A stretch of 64,000 bases of DNA from Parasphingopyxis sp. CP4 (lineage in GTDB: Bacteria; Pseudomonadota; Alphaproteobacteria; Sphingomonadales; Sphingomonadaceae): assembly GCF_013378055.1 (NCBI RefSeq), contig NZ_CP051130.1:2854001-2918000 (forward strand), read 5' to 3'. A model generated the notes under the pieces. The model was not told the DNA's origin. It saw only the letters and a list, made by a program, of their open reading frames with translations, and ran no database searches. Numbering within the stretch: position 1 is the stretch's first letter; each line of letters opens with the position of its first letter. A program made the translations under genes and the position numbers. This document shows positions 3,274 through 9,013 of this stretch, one piece after another.

Positions 3274-3380
3274 CAACCTCTCCGTAGATGGACCCCTGAG
3301 GCGGAATATCGCGCCTAGCGCGATTCCCTTTCCTGCACTAGACCCCGGCATCTGCATTCGAGATGAACGGAGCAACACGG

Positions 3381-4265
3381 ATGAGCGATACGGATTGGGT
3401 GATCGGTGTAGTCGGCGGTTCGGGGCTTTACGCAATCGACGCGCTGGAAAATGCCCAGTCGATCCGCGTCGACACGCCATGGGGCGATGCCTCCGACGAA
3501 CTGGTGCTGGGCGAGATTGCCGGCAAGCGCTTCGTGTTCCTGCCCCGCCATGGCAAAGGCCATCGCATTCCGCCGAGCGAGCTGAACTTCCGCGCCAATA
3601 TCGACGCGCTGAAACGCGCGGGTTGTACCGACATGATCTCGCTCTCCGCGGTGGGCTCGCTGCGCGAAGATCTGCCGCCCGGCAAATTCGTGATCGTCGA
3701 CCAGTTTATCGATCGTACCTTTGCGCGCGAGAAGAGCTTTTTCGGTACCGGGCTGGTGGCCCATGTTTCCGTTGCCGATCCGGTATGCCCGAGCCTGTCT
3801 GACCATGCCGAAGCGGCGGCCAAGGCGGCCGGCGCCGATGTCCATCGCGGCGCGACCTATCTCGCCATGGAAGGCCCGCAATTCTCCTCGCGCGCGGAAA
3901 GCGAACTCTATCGCCACTGGGGTTGCGATGTGATTGGCATGACCGCGATGCCCGAAGCCAAACTCGCCCGTGAGGCGGAGCTTCCCTATGCGCTGGTTGC
4001 GATGGTCACCGACTATGATTGCTGGCGCGACGATACGGCGGACGTTGAAGTGCATGACATTTTGGCGACGCTATCGGCCAATGCAGACAAGGCCGCGCAA
4101 ACGGTTGTTGAACTGGCCAAATCGCTCCCCGACACACGCCCTGCCAATCCGCTCGATACGGTCCTCGACCATGCCATCATAACAGCGCCTGATGCGATGG
4201 ACCCGGCGATGAAGGCGAGGCTGGATGCAATTGGGAAGCGGGTGTTCGCGGAAACAGCCGGCTAG
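3381..4265 (+). CDS. mtnP: S-methyl-5'-thioadenosine phosphorylase
   Basis: A 294-residue nucleoside phosphorylase. It phosphorolyses 5'-methylthioadenosine to adenine and methylthioribose-1-phosphate in methionine salvage. Visible family signatures are VVGGSGLY at the N-terminus, a phosphate-binding PRHGKGHRIPP loop, the MEGPQFSSRAES segment and GMTAMPEAKLARE. The ATG at 3381 has GGAG eight bases upstream; the in-frame ATG at 3363 has no ribosome site. It converges on the radical SAM gene 12 bases away. Next to a radical SAM protein and ArsM, a role on a 5'-deoxy-5'-arsinoyl-adenosine is conceivable, because that compound resembles methylthioadenosine. That role is inference only. Confidence 0.9.
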   Translation: MSDTDWVIGVVGGSGLYAIDALENAQSIRVDTPWGDASDELVLGEIAGKRFVFLPRHGKGHRIPPSELNFRANIDALKRAGCTDMISLSAVGSLREDLPPGKFVIVDQFIDRTFAREKSFFGTGLVAHVSVADPVCPSLSDHAEAAAKAAGADVHRGATYLAMEGPQFSSRAESELYRHWGCDVIGMTAMPEAKLAREAELPYALVAMVTDYDCWRDDTADVEVHDILATLSANADKAAQTVVELAKSLPDTRPANPLDTVLDHAIITAPDAMDPAMKARLDAIGKRVFAETAG

Positions 4266-4277
4266 GCATTAGAGGAC

Positions 4278-5290
4278 CTACGCCGTGCAGCTCGCGCCGC
4301 CCAGGACGCAGAAGCGGGCGCAATGGGGGTGGTTGAGCGATACGTCGCGGCTCGCTTCATCGAGCGTTTCCCCCATCTGGAAATCATCGCCATAGGGAAG
4401 CAAGGTGCAGGCCGTGACCATCGGCTTGTCCGCGCCCTTATGCTTCACGACCATCCGGCTCGATGAACACATGACCGTGCCCGGATCGACATCGAGAATG
4501 CCCCAGCACGCTGTCGTGATTTCGGGCACGTCGAGTGTCGCATCCATTTCCGGAAACAGGACGAGCCGCATGGGATCGCTCGGATCGATACGGATGTCCG
4601 TGCCGGCGAACAGCGCCGCATAGCCTGTCCGGGCCATCGCATCGTCTTCATGGGCAAGATGGCGTCCGGCAACGGCAATCGAAAAGCCATTGTCTGACAG
4701 CCATTTGAGCCCGGATATGCCCTTGTCCCAGGTATCCGCGCCGCGTTCGGCCTCATGCGCCGCCTGACTGTGATGATCGAGACTGACGCGGAACGTCATC
4801 CGCTTGCCGTAGCGCGCATTGAGATCGAGCAGCGCATCTTCGAAACGGCGCATCGGCCGCATCGCGTTGGTCAGCACCAACACCTCAAATCCGCGCGCGA
4901 GACAGCTTTCGAGCATCGGCACCATGTCGCGGTTCATGAAAGGCTCGCCGCCCGTAAAACCGATCTCGCGCGTGCCCAGCCCGTCGCGTTCGATCTCGTC
5001 GAGATAGGCGTCGACCTCTGCCAGGGTCAGATAGACAAGCGCATCATTGGTTGGTGAGCTCTCAATATAACAGCTCTTGCAGGCGAGATTGCATAATGTG
5101 CCGGTGTTGAACCAGAGTGTCTCCAGCCGATCGAGGCGAACCGTAGCCCGCGGCTCGCCCTTGGCCGTGACCTTGGGATCGCGGAACTTATCCGGATCGA
5201 GCGGTGCAGCATCGGCGATTTCGAAAGGCGAGGGGCCTTCTAGCGGTTGGGTAGCGATGGCGGGATATCCTATCTGATCGATCGGCGCAT
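4278..5290 (-). CDS. Radical SAM protein with a disrupted or non-canonical start
   Basis: The frame is open from directly after the TAA at 5307-5309 down to the TAG at 4278. It encodes about 335 residues with the iron-sulfur motif CNLACKSC (cysteine codons at 5091-5093, 5079-5081 and 5070-5072) and the GFTGGEPF motif, so it is a radical SAM enzyme. The first in-frame ATG, GTG or TTG is ATG 4937, which lies after the cluster motif and would give a dead protein. An ATG at 5288-5290 is one base out of frame. If a single G were restored after it, the product would begin MAPIDQIGYP, 16 bases after the oxidoreductase stop. I therefore place the start there and flag a one-base loss, real or from sequencing. 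The C-terminal half contains several cysteines (TACWGI, MCSSS, TACTLL, HCARFCVLGGASC), possibly for auxiliary clusters. The substrate is unknown. Confidence 0.75.
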
Positions 5291-5306
5291 AGACGGAGCG
5301 TCCCGA

Positions 5307-6722
5307 TTAAAGCAAATATTTGGCGCGGAACCGGGCCCAGCGCTTGGGCAAGCCGCCAAAGATTGTCGGCTCCCAGATCGCAAATCCCGCCTGTTTCGAG
5401 ATATCCGAGCGCGTCGGATAGGGGACAATCGCCCCGCCGATCGCAAAGGCATTGGCCTTGCCACTGATCGCCAGGCTCCAGGGCAGCAGGAACTCACCGG
5501 CATGCGGACCGACCACGGTCGCACCCAGGACTTTCTTGCCCTTGCGGATGATCTTGAGGAACCCTTCGGACTCGTTTTCCGCGCGGGCGCGGTCATTCTC
5601 GGCAAATTCCTGTCGCGTAATTTCGACCTTGTCGCCATATTTCTCGCGCGCCTGGGCTTCGGTCATGCCGACATGGCCAAGCTCGGGATCGCTGTAGGTG
5701 ACCCAGGGCAGGGCCGTGTAATCGGCCTTGCTCGGCAGGCCGAGGGCGATCTGCAGGATCACCAGTGAGCCCTCATAGCCCGATGCATGGGTGAAGCGAG
5801 GGCCGACCCGGCAATCGCCGATCGCAAAGACTTTCTTGTTGGAGGTCCGGCGGCGGGCATCGACCTCGATCCCGCGCGGGCTCCATTTGATCCCGGCATT
5901 TTCCAGGCCGAAGCTTCCAAAATCGCAGGTCCGGCCCGTCGCGACCAGCAGGTGGCTCGCTTCGATCGGCTCGCCTGAATCGGTTTCGACGCGGATCACA
6001 CCATCGATTTCGCTGACGCGCACGACATTGGTGTCCTCGCGGATATCCATGCCTTCGGCGCGGAACCGGTCGACAACGATCTTGGCGGCTTCCGGGTCAT
6101 CCTTGCCCATCAGCTTGTGCCGTTCGATGATCGATACCTTCGCGCCGAGCCGGCGGAAGCTCTGCGCCATTTCACACCCAATCGGACCGCCGCCCATGAT
6201 CGCCAGATGGCGGGGGCGCTCAGTAAGGCCAAAGATCGTCTCATTGGTGAGGTAAGGCACGTCAGCTAGGCCTTCGACCGGCGGAATGAATGGCTTCGAT
6301 CCGATGGCGAGCACGATGCGCGGCGCTATCAAGGTCTGACCGTTAATCTCGATCGTCGATCCGTCGATCATCTTCGCGGTCCCGCGGATCACCTCGACGC
6401 CGAATTCTTCCTCGAACCGTTCCTGCGAATCATCAACCGCAATCGCGTCGATCGCGCTTTGCACATGATCATGGACCGCGCGGAAATCGATATTGGGCTC
6501 GACATCGGCGATGCCATATTTGGCATTCTCGCGCATCTCCTGAGCGCGCCGGGCCGCTGTGATCAAGGCCTTGGAGGGGACACAGCCAGTATTCAGGCAG
6601 TCTCCGCCCATCGGACCTTTCTCGATCAGCGCGACCTTCAAGCCGAACTGCGCGCAACCGCCGGCGGCGGTTAAGCCTGCCGATCCTGCGCCGATTACAA
6701 TTACGTCATGGGTGCGTTTCAT
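5307..6722 (-). CDS. MerA-like pyridine nucleotide-disulfide oxidoreductase
   Basis: A 471-residue flavoprotein of the dihydrolipoamide dehydrogenase/mercuric reductase superfamily. The FAD-binding GAGSAGLTAA lies at residues 11-20, the redox pair is CLNTGC (Cys42, Cys47), the NAD-binding site is GGGPIGCEMAQSF near residue 175, and AIGDCRVGPRFTHAS binds FAD near 300. It has no N-terminal heavy-metal domain and no C-terminal CysCys pair, so it is not a true mercuric reductase. The His-Pro-Thr-x-x-Glu acid-base motif of lipoamide dehydrogenases is replaced by YPTRSD, so lipoamide is unlikely. The ATG follows GAAGAGG. It sits upstream of the radical SAM gene and divergent from arsM. A role in arsenic, thiol or selenium redox chemistry is plausible. 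Confidence 0.8.
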   Translation of the reverse strand: MKRTHDVIVIGAGSAGLTAAGGCAQFGLKVALIEKGPMGGDCLNTGCVPSKALITAARRAQEMRENAKYGIADVEPNIDFRAVHDHVQSAIDAIAVDDSQERFEEEFGVEVIRGTAKMIDGSTIEINGQTLIAPRIVLAIGSKPFIPPVEGLADVPYLTNETIFGLTERPRHLAIMGGGPIGCEMAQSFRRLGAKVSIIERHKLMGKDDPEAAKIVVDRFRAEGMDIREDTNVVRVSEIDGVIRVETDSGEPIEASHLLVATGRTCDFGSFGLENAGIKWSPRGIEVDARRRTSNKKVFAIGDCRVGPRFTHASGYEGSLVILQIALGLPSKADYTALPWVTYSDPELGHVGMTEAQAREKYGDKVEITRQEFAENDRARAENESEGFLKIIRKGKKVLGATVVGPHAGEFLLPWSLAISGKANAFAIGGAIVPYPTRSDISKQAGFAIWEPTIFGGLPKRWARFRAKYLL

Positions 6723-6797
6723 GATGCCTCTTCCCTGTTTCGTCGCGCCCTGTTGCCGCGATGTCTCAACCGGGCTTTTCGGGAAGTCACCGCCAAA

Positions 6798-6826
6798 GGT
6801 TACAATGATGGTGCATTTGTGTAACC
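6798..6826. promoter_or_regulatory. Inverted repeat in the divergent oxidoreductase/arsM promoter
   Basis: GGTTACA at 6798-6804 and TGTAACC at 6820-6826 form a perfect seven-base inverted repeat with a 15-base spacer. A direct repeat TGGTGCAT at 6809-6816 and 6830-6837, spaced 21 bases or two helical turns, overlaps it. The position between two divergent genes suggests a regulator binding site. No regulator gene is adjacent. Confidence 0.4.
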
Positions 6827-6882
6827 GCTTGGTGCATCAATCCGAAGCTCTTCTCAACATTCATGGTAATTGGGGATCCGCA

Positions 6883-7926
6883 GTGAATATCGAGAATAGC
6901 CGCGACTATTATGGTCAGGTGCTGCAAGGCTCAGAAGATCTGAAAACCGACGCCTGCTGTACGATTGGGGCTCCGGCACCGGAAATCCGCGAAGCGCTGG
7001 CCCATGTCCATCCGGATGTGAAAGCGCGCTATTATGGCTGCGGCCTGATTGCACCTGAGGGCGCAGAAGGCATGCGGATCCTGGATCTCGGCAGCGGATC
7101 GGGCCAGGACGCCTATCTGCTGGCACAACTAGCGGGCGAAGATGGATCGGTGGTCGGAGTCGATACGACGCCCGAACAGCTGGCTGTGGCGCGCGAATAT
7201 CTTGATTGGCACGCGGAGCGCTTCGGCTATCGCAATGTCGAATTTGTCGAAGGCGATATCGAGCAGCTCGATACGCTGGGCCTCGAACCCGCGAGCTTTG
7301 ACATCATCGTTTCGAATTGCGTGATCAATCTGGTCGCGGACAAGGCGAAGGTGTTTAGCGATGCCCATGCGTTGCTCAAACCGGGCGGCGAATTCTATTT
7401 CTCTGACGTCTATGCCGAACGACGGGTCCCCGACGCGCTGTTGCATGATCCTGTGCTGCATGGGGAATGCCTGTCCGGCGCGCTCTATTGGGGCGATTTC
7501 GATAGGGTGGCCAAGGACGCCGGATTTCCTGATCCCCGGCTGGTGACTGACAGGCCATTGGTGATTGGCGATCCGGCAGTGGCCCAGAAAGTCGCCGGTA
7601 TCCGCTTTTTCTCCGCCACCTATCGCCTCTTCAAGCTCGACGGTCTGGAACCGCAATGCGAGGATTATGGCCAGGCGGTGCGCTACAAGGGCACGATCGC
7701 CGGGCATGAGCGCGCGTTCATGCTGGACGGTCATCATGTCATCGAAGCGGGCCGGATGTTTGCCGTGTGCGGCAATACTTGGCGTATGTTGGCCGACACG
7801 CGGTTTGCAGACCATTTCGAATTCCATGGTGATTTCTCGACCCATTACGGGATTTTCCCGGGCTGCGGCGACTTGATGCCCTATGAGGCATCGCCAGCCA
7901 GTGATGCTGTATCGGGGTGCTGCTGA
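6883..7926 (+). CDS. arsM: Arsenite methyltransferase ArsM
   Basis: A 347-residue SAM-dependent methyltransferase that methylates As(III). All four functional cysteines of the algal/bacterial ArsM type are visible: LKTDACC (Cys25/26), YYGCGL (Cys53), NCVINL (Cys146) and GECLSGALYW (Cys196). The SAM-binding motif is LDLGSGSGQD near residue 70. The C-terminal domain has FFSATYRLFKL and CEDYGQ. I chose GTG 6883, preceded by GGGGA at six bases, because homologues begin just before the xxDYYG motif; ATG 6805 would lie inside a palindrome and add unlikely sequence. It is followed one base after its stop by an SDR gene, so the two probably form an operon. Confidence 0.9.
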   Translation: MNIENSRDYYGQVLQGSEDLKTDACCTIGAPAPEIREALAHVHPDVKARYYGCGLIAPEGAEGMRILDLGSGSGQDAYLLAQLAGEDGSVVGVDTTPEQLAVAREYLDWHAERFGYRNVEFVEGDIEQLDTLGLEPASFDIIVSNCVINLVADKAKVFSDAHALLKPGGEFYFSDVYAERRVPDALLHDPVLHGECLSGALYWGDFDRVAKDAGFPDPRLVTDRPLVIGDPAVAQKVAGIRFFSATYRLFKLDGLEPQCEDYGQAVRYKGTIAGHERAFMLDGHHVIEAGRMFAVCGNTWRMLADTRFADHFEFHGDFSTHYGIFPGCGDLMPYEASPASDAVSGCC

Positions 7927-7927
7927 A

Positions 7928-9013
7928 TTGACCTGTTATCTGGTTACCGGAGCAGCGGGACTGCTTGGCGGCGAGATATCAGCCGCGTTGGTTGCGCGTG
8001 GCGACAGCGTGATCGGTCTTGTTCGCAAGAACCGGATATTGCGCCACGGCGATGGCCTTGAGGTTTCGACGGCCGAATGGACGGGTGGCGCGCCGCAACC
8101 CGGTGCGGTTCAGCTGGTGACGGGTGATGTTACCGATCCGGCGCTCGGCCTTTCGCCCGACAGCTATCGCGATCTTGCCGATACTGTAGATTGCATCATC
8201 CATTGCGCGGCTCTGGTCGAGTTCGACGCCGATGAAGAGATCTATCACGCGATCAATATCGAGGGGACGAGGCATGTCCTGGCACTAGCTCGAGCCCGGA
8301 CCAAGTCTCCGGCGGCGATGGTTCAGGTCAGTACAGCCTATGTGTGCGGTGAACGCGACGGAGAAATTGCGGAAGATGATGCGCAGCGGCCCGATCGCTT
8401 TGCCAATCCCTATGAAGCGAGCAAATTTGCAAGCGAGGCACTGGTTCGCGAAGCAATGGCCGATGGGATTCCGGCTGCTATTGCCCGCCCCAGCATTGTC
8501 GTGGGCCGTGCCGGAGATGGCGTAATCGCCGGATTCGACACGATTTACATGGCGTTCAAATTGCTAGCAGAAGGGCGAATTCGGACCATTCCATCGACCC
8601 GCGATGCGACACTAAACTTTGTGCCACTCGATCATGCCGTCAATGGAATCGTAACCATCGCCGATCGCATCGAGATTGCTCGCGGACAGACCTTTCATTT
8701 GGTCGCCGGAGCGCCGATGCCGGTCTCAGATTTCTTCTCCCTGGTTCGAGCTTATCCGCAATTCTCCAATCCGGAGCAGGTGGCGCCCGATCAGTTTGAC
8801 CCCGAAATGCTATCTCCAATCGAACGACGGTTCCACCGGCGCGTTGCCACGCTCTACACCAGCTATTTCCAACGCAATCCATTGTTTTTACAAGATAATG
8901 TGATCGGATTGATGGGATCTGGTGGCCCGGATGCGGATCGCGATCTCATGAGCCGCCAGATTGATTTTGCCGTGGGTGCCGGATTTCTTCCTGCCGAATC
9001 GGTGAACGCCTAA
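7928..9013 (+). CDS. Extended SDR / thioester-reductase-like NAD(P)-dependent oxidoreductase
   Basis: A protein of about 361 residues with an N-terminal Rossmann fold (TGAAGLLGG) and the active-site triad in STAYVCGE followed by YEASKFASE. This pattern matches extended SDRs of the male-sterility/thioester reductase (NAD_binding_4) group, which reduce acyl thioesters or modify sugar nucleotides. TTG 7928, with GGGGTG seven bases upstream, places the Rossmann motif correctly; ATG 7904 is an alternative start inside arsM. Coupling to arsM suggests a role in arsenic metabolite processing, perhaps toward an arsenosugar or arsenolipid. The actual substrate is unknown. Confidence 0.75.
   Translation: MTCYLVTGAAGLLGGEISAALVARGDSVIGLVRKNRILRHGDGLEVSTAEWTGGAPQPGAVQLVTGDVTDPALGLSPDSYRDLADTVDCIIHCAALVEFDADEEIYHAINIEGTRHVLALARARTKSPAAMVQVSTAYVCGERDGEIAEDDAQRPDRFANPYEASKFASEALVREAMADGIPAAIARPSIVVGRAGDGVIAGFDTIYMAFKLLAEGRIRTIPSTRDATLNFVPLDHAVNGIVTIADRIEIARGQTFHLVAGAPMPVSDFFSLVRAYPQFSNPEQVAPDQFDPEMLSPIERRFHRRVATLYTSYFQRNPLFLQDNVIGLMGSGGPDADRDLMSRQIDFAVGAGFLPAESVNA

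Follow-up and report, generated by a model that had tools for sequence, protein, structure and literature searches.

The five-gene island described here lies in the alphaproteobacterium Parasphingopyxis sp. CP4, whose chromosome is a single contig of 2.96 Mb. The whole stretch analysed, hereafter the window, spans 64,000 nucleotides (G000:C1:2854001-2918000), and positions are those of the window unless a contig is named. The first gene, mtnP, encodes an S-methyl-5'-thioadenosine phosphorylase of 292 amino acids (aa) on the plus strand (3387-4265; a further in-frame ATG lies at 3363). It faces an adjacent minus-strand gene (4278-5258) for a divergent, ArsS-like radical S-adenosylmethionine (SAM) protein with a C-terminal cysteine-rich domain, hereafter rSAM, which comprises 326 aa from a probable AUC start. 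The open frame of rSAM extends over 4278-5306 and reaches up to the stop codon, at 5307, of a MerA-like FAD/NAD(P) disulfide reductase (5307-6722, minus strand, 471 aa), such that the two frames abut; the reductase carries a redox CxxxxC motif and lacks the C-terminal Cys pair. With the starts chosen here, 160 bp (6723-6882) separate the reductase from the divergent arsM gene (6883-7926, plus strand), which encodes a four-Cys arsenite SAM methyltransferase of 347 aa from a GTG chosen in the analysis. Scanned for inverted repeats, this spacer yielded one 9-nt overlapping palindrome only and no convincing operator. An extended short-chain dehydrogenase/reductase (SDR) of the NAD_binding_4/thioester-reductase type (7928-9013, plus strand; PF07993, 166.8 bits) follows one base after the arsM stop, given a TTG start at 7928. 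A first-pass annotation made from the sequence had described all five genes, with mtnP facing rSAM, arsM head to head with the reductase and the SDR directly behind arsM; our reading of the open frames and family scores places each gene where it had been put and agrees with this arrangement.

The island is real and more than a chance grouping, because its gene set and order, with the same flanking genes, are repeated in Parasphingopyxis-type loci (L033-L037; no arsM was detected in L035) and the same gene families recur around the rSAM gene in other genera. As a gene set it is nevertheless incomplete, and here the first-pass annotation needs correction: genes of the families TIGR04282 and TIGR04283, which overlap each other, lie elsewhere on the same chromosome, far from the window (G000:C1:1707547-1708868). 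Both are NCBIfam "arsenosugar biosynthesis" families, and both recur beside rSAM or co-occur with it.

The arsenosugar radical SAM enzyme ArsS has reportedly been described for Synechocystis (SsArsS) by Xue in 2019 and Cheng in 2021. The rSAM protein matches Radical_SAM (PF04055, 62.9 bits) and possesses the CxxxCxxC motif. Against NCBIfam it scores 87.5 bits for the Rv1681 family (cut-off 380) and 60.7 bits for ArsS (TIGR04167, cut-off 300), the match being confined in each case to the radical SAM core; the latter score excludes it from canonical ArsS and bears out the earlier remark that it does not look like classic ArsS. Cysteines C56, C60, C63, C264, C284, C313 and C317 are invariant among 52 relatives, and C324 is nearly so. 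Together they reproduce the layout of ArsS, in which a radical SAM core with CxxxCxxC is followed by a cysteine-rich C-terminal domain with the same MC...C...HC..C...C order. A profile of the 52 relatives aligned with a profile of 13 ArsS proteins over 265 columns (22% identity, E 1.5e-17, a comparison made without control radical SAM profiles), with the C-terminal cysteines in register; 12 of 64 rows had been excluded from the alignment, one for a stop codon and eleven as an untested precaution. In a tree of 58 sequences, a main branch of rSAM (13 sequences), a low branch (6) and distant relatives (9) stand together with support of 87/86, the low branch being 33-36% and the distant relatives 31-37% identical to the window protein. 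Structure prediction, a check proposed in the first-pass annotation, gave a model (pLDDT 93.3) whose best matches, BlsE and SkfB (TMq 0.54), are radical SAM structures of other functions. The rSAM protein is of ArsS-like build, yet outside the ArsS family.

The proteins that accompany rSAM also accompany ArsS. The window ArsM (164.6 bits for PRK11873, below the cut-off of 263) is 62% identical over 343-344 aa to the ArsM beside canonical ArsS in loci L136 and L141, and 58-59% identical to the ArsM beside low-branch rSAM in L170 and L171; in both comparisons the cysteines are common. Locus L136 holds a canonical ArsS with ArsM, reductase, MtnP, TIGR04282 and TIGR04283, which are 62%, 37%, 51%, 39% and 32% identical to their counterparts in the CP4 strain. 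It differs in that its reductase frame is longer (714 aa from stop to stop) and that all its genes stand together, whereas CP4 has an SDR in its island and carries the TIGR04282 and TIGR04283 genes at a separate locus. Because the same ArsM and partners lie beside ArsS, main-branch rSAM and low-branch rSAM, it is the radical SAM protein that appears to be the exchanged part of the gene set.

To place the island in context, neighbourhoods were surveyed across genomes. Across 66 main-branch loci taken from a named collection and scored with hidden Markov models built here and thresholds set by the analyst, TIGR04282 was found in 30, TIGR04283 in 25, MtnP in 22, the reductase in 20, ArsM in 17 and the SDR in 12, and any of five core partners in 44. 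Among 20 canonical ArsS loci, picked by the analyst, 13 had at least one core partner (reductase 10, TIGR04282 7, TIGR04283 5, MtnP 3, ArsM 2). Within the window's order, 108 of 396 genomes gave an rSAM match of at least 95 bits, and from the 396 the analyst picked 80, comprising 55 with rSAM (51 main branch, 4 low branch) and 25 lacking it. An ArsM ortholog occurred in 31 of the 55 and in none of the 25, and in 24 of the 31 it was at most 10 kb from rSAM; TIGR04283 was this close in 37 of 55 genomes and MtnP in 18 of the 52 that had it. It had been set beforehand that the survey should ask whether the link of rSAM to arsM, and the context of mtnP, hold outside this strain. Both do, the mtnP context recurring in those 18 genomes, in the rSAM branch of 33-36% identity and in 3 of the 20 ArsS loci. 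Outside the order, linked partners were seen in named loci of Parvularcula (L050, L056, L057) and Hyphomicrobium (L066, L072), in a Pseudomonadales metagenome-assembled genome (L098) and in L067. DUF547 proteins also lay near rSAM in 15 of the 66 main-branch loci, and acyl-CoA dehydrogenases in 8.

A separate group of rSAM relatives, about 30-37% identical to the window protein, occurs in Acidobacteria, Gemmatimonadetes, KSB1 and others (L099-L112). Their neighbours include a calcineurin-like phosphoesterase in 12 of 14 loci, another flavoprotein in 6 and ArsM in 4, and these loci are perhaps a third arsenic-related setting.

Presence and absence across genomes follow the same pattern. In the order sample, a TIGR04283-like protein of at least 125 bits was present in all 55 genomes with rSAM, and the best match in each of the 25 genomes lacking it was at most 70.9 bits; canonical ArsS exceeded its cut-off in none of the 80. 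In a phylum survey of 398 genomes, three profile searches with the same settings were cross-tabulated. Canonical ArsS was found in 116 genomes (114 over the cut-off and two fragments added by hand), none listed as belonging to the window's class; main-branch rSAM was found in 30, all of the window's class, and low-branch rSAM in 7, which belong to other classes. rSAM and ArsS never stood together in one of the 398 genomes: none of the 37 rSAM genomes has ArsS. TIGR04283 (E<=1e-28) accompanied main-branch rSAM in 30 of 30 genomes, low-branch rSAM in 6 of 7 and ArsS in 104 of 116, and occurred in 21 of the 245 genomes with neither. Three genomes of the window's class (G411, G581, G664) have TIGR04283 and neither rSAM nor ArsS; a further replacement enzyme for ArsS is possibly present there. 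The replacement of ArsS, the partner genes common to both and the cysteine layout together argue for an ArsS-like role of rSAM, which, on the pathway assignment given below, is probably an ArsS replacement.

The two unlinked families bear on what the pathway makes, since it is their company with rSAM that points to arsenosugars specifically. The CP4 TIGR04282 protein (from G000:C1:1707547) scores 191.6 bits, above the cut-off of 134. NCBI names this family a glycosyltransferase, the short name of the model is glyco_like_cofC, and a TIGR04282 gene has already been called fbiD in the available part of PMC8801600; a likeness to guanylyltransferases has thus been noted before as annotation. A profile of 16 members matched the CofC-type structures 2i5e (E 0.0004) and 6bwg (E 0.019), and KdsB at E of about 0.25. 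Against Pfam CofC (PF01983, cut-off 22), the member from L043 scores 23.9 bits and the CP4 copy 15.3, below the cut-off. The structure predicted for the L043 protein (L043:4427-5011, pLDDT 95.1), searched with Foldseek, had as its top match 3cgx, titled "putative nucleotide-diphospho-sugar transferase", followed by CofC-type proteins (TMq 0.79 to 2i5e, 0.78 to 7p97), Rv2983, KdsB, 3-phosphoglycerate guanylyltransferase, IspD and MobA; besides 3cgx, none of the best 50 matches listed carries the name of a sugar transferase. TIGR04282 is thereby predicted to have a nucleotidyltransferase fold of the CofC, MobA and IspD type. It resembles the phospholactate guanylyltransferase CofC/FbiD in profile and predicted structure, and would differ in its substrate, here putatively a pentose-1-phosphate.

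The reductase scores 429.5 bits against PRK06370.1-3 (cut-off 620) and 336.4 against MerA (TIGR02053, cut-off 454.45), and the latter score rejects it as a mercuric reductase. Its homologs recur at both rSAM and ArsS loci, and we would guess that it keeps arsenic trivalent or reduces a pathway intermediate. The SDR stays without an assigned role.

We consider it likely that the first half of an arsenosugar-type pathway is encoded in the island, with a very divergent radical SAM protein in an ArsS-like role. ArsM would methylate As(III) to dimethylarsinite, with the MerA-like reductase probably keeping the arsenic trivalent, and rSAM would move a 5'-deoxyadenosyl group onto dimethylarsinite, as ArsS does. 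We know of no assignment to genes of the steps that follow arsenic adenosylation. MtnP could phosphorolyse the adenosyl arsenical to adenine and 5-deoxy-5-dimethylarsinoyl-alpha-ribose-1-phosphate, the unlinked TIGR04282 protein could activate this arsenosugar-1-phosphate, and TIGR04283, a family-2 glycosyltransferase, could then form a beta-riboside. A nucleotidyltransferase fits because a route through a sugar-1-phosphate would need one. Enzymes of the MtnP class yield the alpha-phosphate with inversion, and a family-2 glycosyltransferase inverts a second time; the two inversions would lead to the beta-ribofuranoside of natural arsenosugars. Natural arsenosugars are beta-ribofuranosides according to the available part of PMC6656958.

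Radical SAM adenosylation followed by release of adenine by a phosphorylase also has an analogue in hopanoid synthesis, where HpnH (adenosyl-hopene transferase) adds the adenosyl group and HpnG, a phosphorylase of the purine nucleoside phosphorylase family, then removes adenine. Membership in either family was rejected (HpnH, 31.7 bits against 225.05; HpnG, 26.8 against 187.1). The evidence for the pathway comprises genes, family scores, predicted folds of rSAM and of one TIGR04282 member, co-occurrence, exclusion and linkage. At the level of single steps, we give those proposed for MtnP and TIGR04282 close to an even chance each. That a second radical SAM family performs the ArsS function across Alphaproteobacteria, with MtnP, TIGR04282 (through a nucleotide-arsenoribose) and TIGR04283 supplying the later steps by way of two inversions, is put forward tentatively, as somewhat less than an even prospect. 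As a whole, the interpretation offered in the first-pass annotation is supported: of its coherent arsenosugar route, the linkage of arsM and mtnP to rSAM recurs, and TIGR04282 and TIGR04283 accompany rSAM, with reservations raised by an ordinary-looking MtnP and by rSAM genomes devoid of ArsM.

Several further observations weigh against the arsenosugar reading. In single-sequence profile comparison, rSAM matched ArsS at 3.9e-12 and was not separated from four radical SAM proteins used as controls, the strongest of which matched at 3.7e-12 (the remaining three, 5e-11 to 1.7e-7). In the tree, the 13 ArsS sequences are set apart from rSAM with support of 100/96, on long branches; of the 17 radical SAM proteins included as controls, one on a long branch joins ArsS and a second is placed beside both groups, so the deep joins are unsure. 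The window ArsM scores 89.3 bits against the arsenosugar ArsM family (NF038099), missing its cut-off of 400, and the ArsM that accompanies canonical ArsS at L136 misses it too (92 bits). The CP4 TIGR04283 protein, at 171 bits, misses the cut-off of 182, which is passed in only 10 of the 80 sampled genomes, and the separation seen in the order is thus a score gap rather than formal membership. No core partner lies nearby in 22 of the 66 main-branch loci, some of them on short contigs. Outside the order a core partner stands at only 1 of 17 rSAM loci (from 17 of 22 such genomes), and since linkage is rare in those genomes, the case there rests mainly on co-occurrence. Fisher's test on the ArsS-free phylum genomes gave p 5.7e-25; the genomes are related, and such values overstate independence.

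The alternative that survives best leaves the rest of the arsenosugar pathway in place and takes MtnP off it, either as an enzyme that clears methylthioadenosine or 5'-deoxyadenosine produced by SAM enzymes or as an old operon accident. We regard this as a serious possibility that falls a little short of even. MtnP exceeds equivalog cut-offs (PRK08931, 453 bits against 437; TIGR01694, 290.6 against 274.85), and at E<=1e-15 its sole match in its own genome is itself. A specialised MtnP paralog at rSAM loci was sought and rejected. In a tree of 29 linked sequences, 10 unlinked sequences from rSAM genomes and 10 from genomes lacking rSAM, linked copies are interspersed with unlinked ones (6 label changes for "linked") and form no distinct clade. 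When 21 linked sequences were compared with 20 others, no residue reached an 80/80 contrast; this count omitted eight linked sequences of a distant type. MtnP is an ordinary, housekeeping-type enzyme, and in 34 of the 52 sampled rSAM genomes that have it, it does not lie within 10 kb of rSAM on the same contig. Moreover, 5'-deoxyadenosine is a by-product and an inhibitor of radical SAM enzymes (PMC8102628, available part). Against this stands the chemistry, as an adenosyl transferase should not give 5'-deoxyadenosine as its main product. MtnP also lies near three branches (main, low and canonical ArsS), including types 35-51% identical to that of the window, and 52 of 55 genomes with rSAM have it, against 12 of 25 that lack rSAM. 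The earlier caution that MtnP may be there by chance is accordingly weakened by the recurring adjacency and retained in so far as no specialised clade or residue was found. Salvage pathways recycle the sugar phosphate of MtnP via MtnA. No match to the MtnA family (PF01008) was found in the CP4 genome at E<=0.001, and the sugar phosphate would therefore not be recycled by such pathways; the usual methionine salvage downstream of MtnP seems absent from this genome. The simplest account within the arsenosugar pathway would be that an ordinary MtnP takes as its substrate the adenosyl arsenical, a compound similar to methylthioadenosine.

It is unlikely that rSAM makes another organoarsenical, for example by 3-amino-3-carboxypropyl transfer as in arsinothricin or by forming some other C-As bond, so that the product is an arsenical and not an arsenosugar. 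The distance of the rSAM sequence from ArsS favours this, and there is a precedent in the arsinothricin cluster arsQML, which likewise pairs ArsM with ArsL, a radical SAM enzyme that modifies arsenic by other chemistry (PMC8552651, available part). The island has no ArsQ-type gene, however, and its ArsM falls outside the arsinothricin ArsM family (NF040538, 128 bits against a cut-off of 500). ArsL has only three conserved cysteines in the available part of PMC8552651, whereas rSAM has further invariant C-terminal cysteines, and rSAM co-occurs with TIGR04282 and TIGR04283 and excludes ArsS.

A little less likely still is that rSAM, TIGR04282 and TIGR04283 form a unit for a non-arsenic substrate, which arsM joined in part of the lineage. 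The ArsM ortholog is absent in 24 of the 55 rSAM genomes, of which five have another ArsM family match, leaving 19 with no match at E<=1e-25; the search detected 4 of 4 positive controls and matched none of 16 genomes lacking rSAM. Eight clusters, all from genomes among these 19 (L177-L184), hold rSAM, TIGR04283, TIGR04282 and the SDR, with the reductase in 7 of 8, and no ArsM, and the arsenosugar label of TIGR04282 and TIGR04283 is an NCBI name only. On the other side, the same ArsM subfamily lies beside canonical ArsS and both rSAM branches, ArsM also stands near some of the more distant relatives, and the ArsM ortholog is confined in the order sample to genomes with rSAM. Strains that lack ArsM may either take up methylated arsenic, for example in dimethylated form, or carry a pathway broader than arsenic. 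That five unrelated genes are neighbours by chance, as an SDR without a role and a housekeeping-type mtnP might suggest, is very improbable given linkage in many genera and the presence/absence correlation, which contradict it for rSAM with arsM and TIGR04283.

The start of the rSAM gene is itself unusual. The mechanical list of open reading frames begins it at 4937, at its earliest ATG, which is internal and lies past the CxxxCxxC motif. In the window, as in L033, L034, L037, L044, L051, L008 and L010, the frame from the preceding stop to the first Cys codon contains no ATG, GTG or TTG, and in L009 the only TTG of that interval sits 43 codons past an Ile codon. The best start in the window is the AUC at 5258, behind AGGA and nine bases (probable initiation site 5256-5271, minus strand). 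Among 75 rSAM loci analysed (two further loci gave no match), 15 lack ATG, GTG or TTG 40-75 codons ahead of the first Cys; the Ile codon of an I-A-T motif is there in 10 of these, at nine distinct places when L004 and L034, the same genome, are counted as one, and is missing in five. In 13 loci the Ile codon is ATC (7), ATA (5) or ATT (1), and an AGGA/GGAG-type site lies a few bases 5' of it in all 13, a descriptive figure as these loci were selected for showing the motif, against 5 of 118 internal in-frame Ile codons. L096 has a GTG immediately 5' of the Ile codon, L035, L036 and L040 have alternative starts upstream, and an ATG occurs near this position in several other genera. Readthrough of the reductase stop into rSAM was rejected, as L036 has an in-frame stop further upstream and L008-L010 have one 4-9 codons before the Ile codon. 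Judged from these sequences, translation of rSAM apparently begins at a conserved isoleucine codon (AUC, AUU or AUA) in the window and some relatives.

In the literature examined, which included few subscription journals, we found no description of this rSAM family or of MtnP in arsenosugar synthesis, and novelty is unproven. Arsenosugars are the main arsenic compounds of seaweeds (PMC5478658, available part). If the pathway proposed here is correct, arsenosugar synthesis would extend to a large bacterial group with no canonical ArsS in the sample, and the recurrence of an adenine-releasing phosphorylase beside such genes would be explained. The pathway would also predict a nucleotide-arsenosugar intermediate, and the TIGR04282 proteins would call for a new name.

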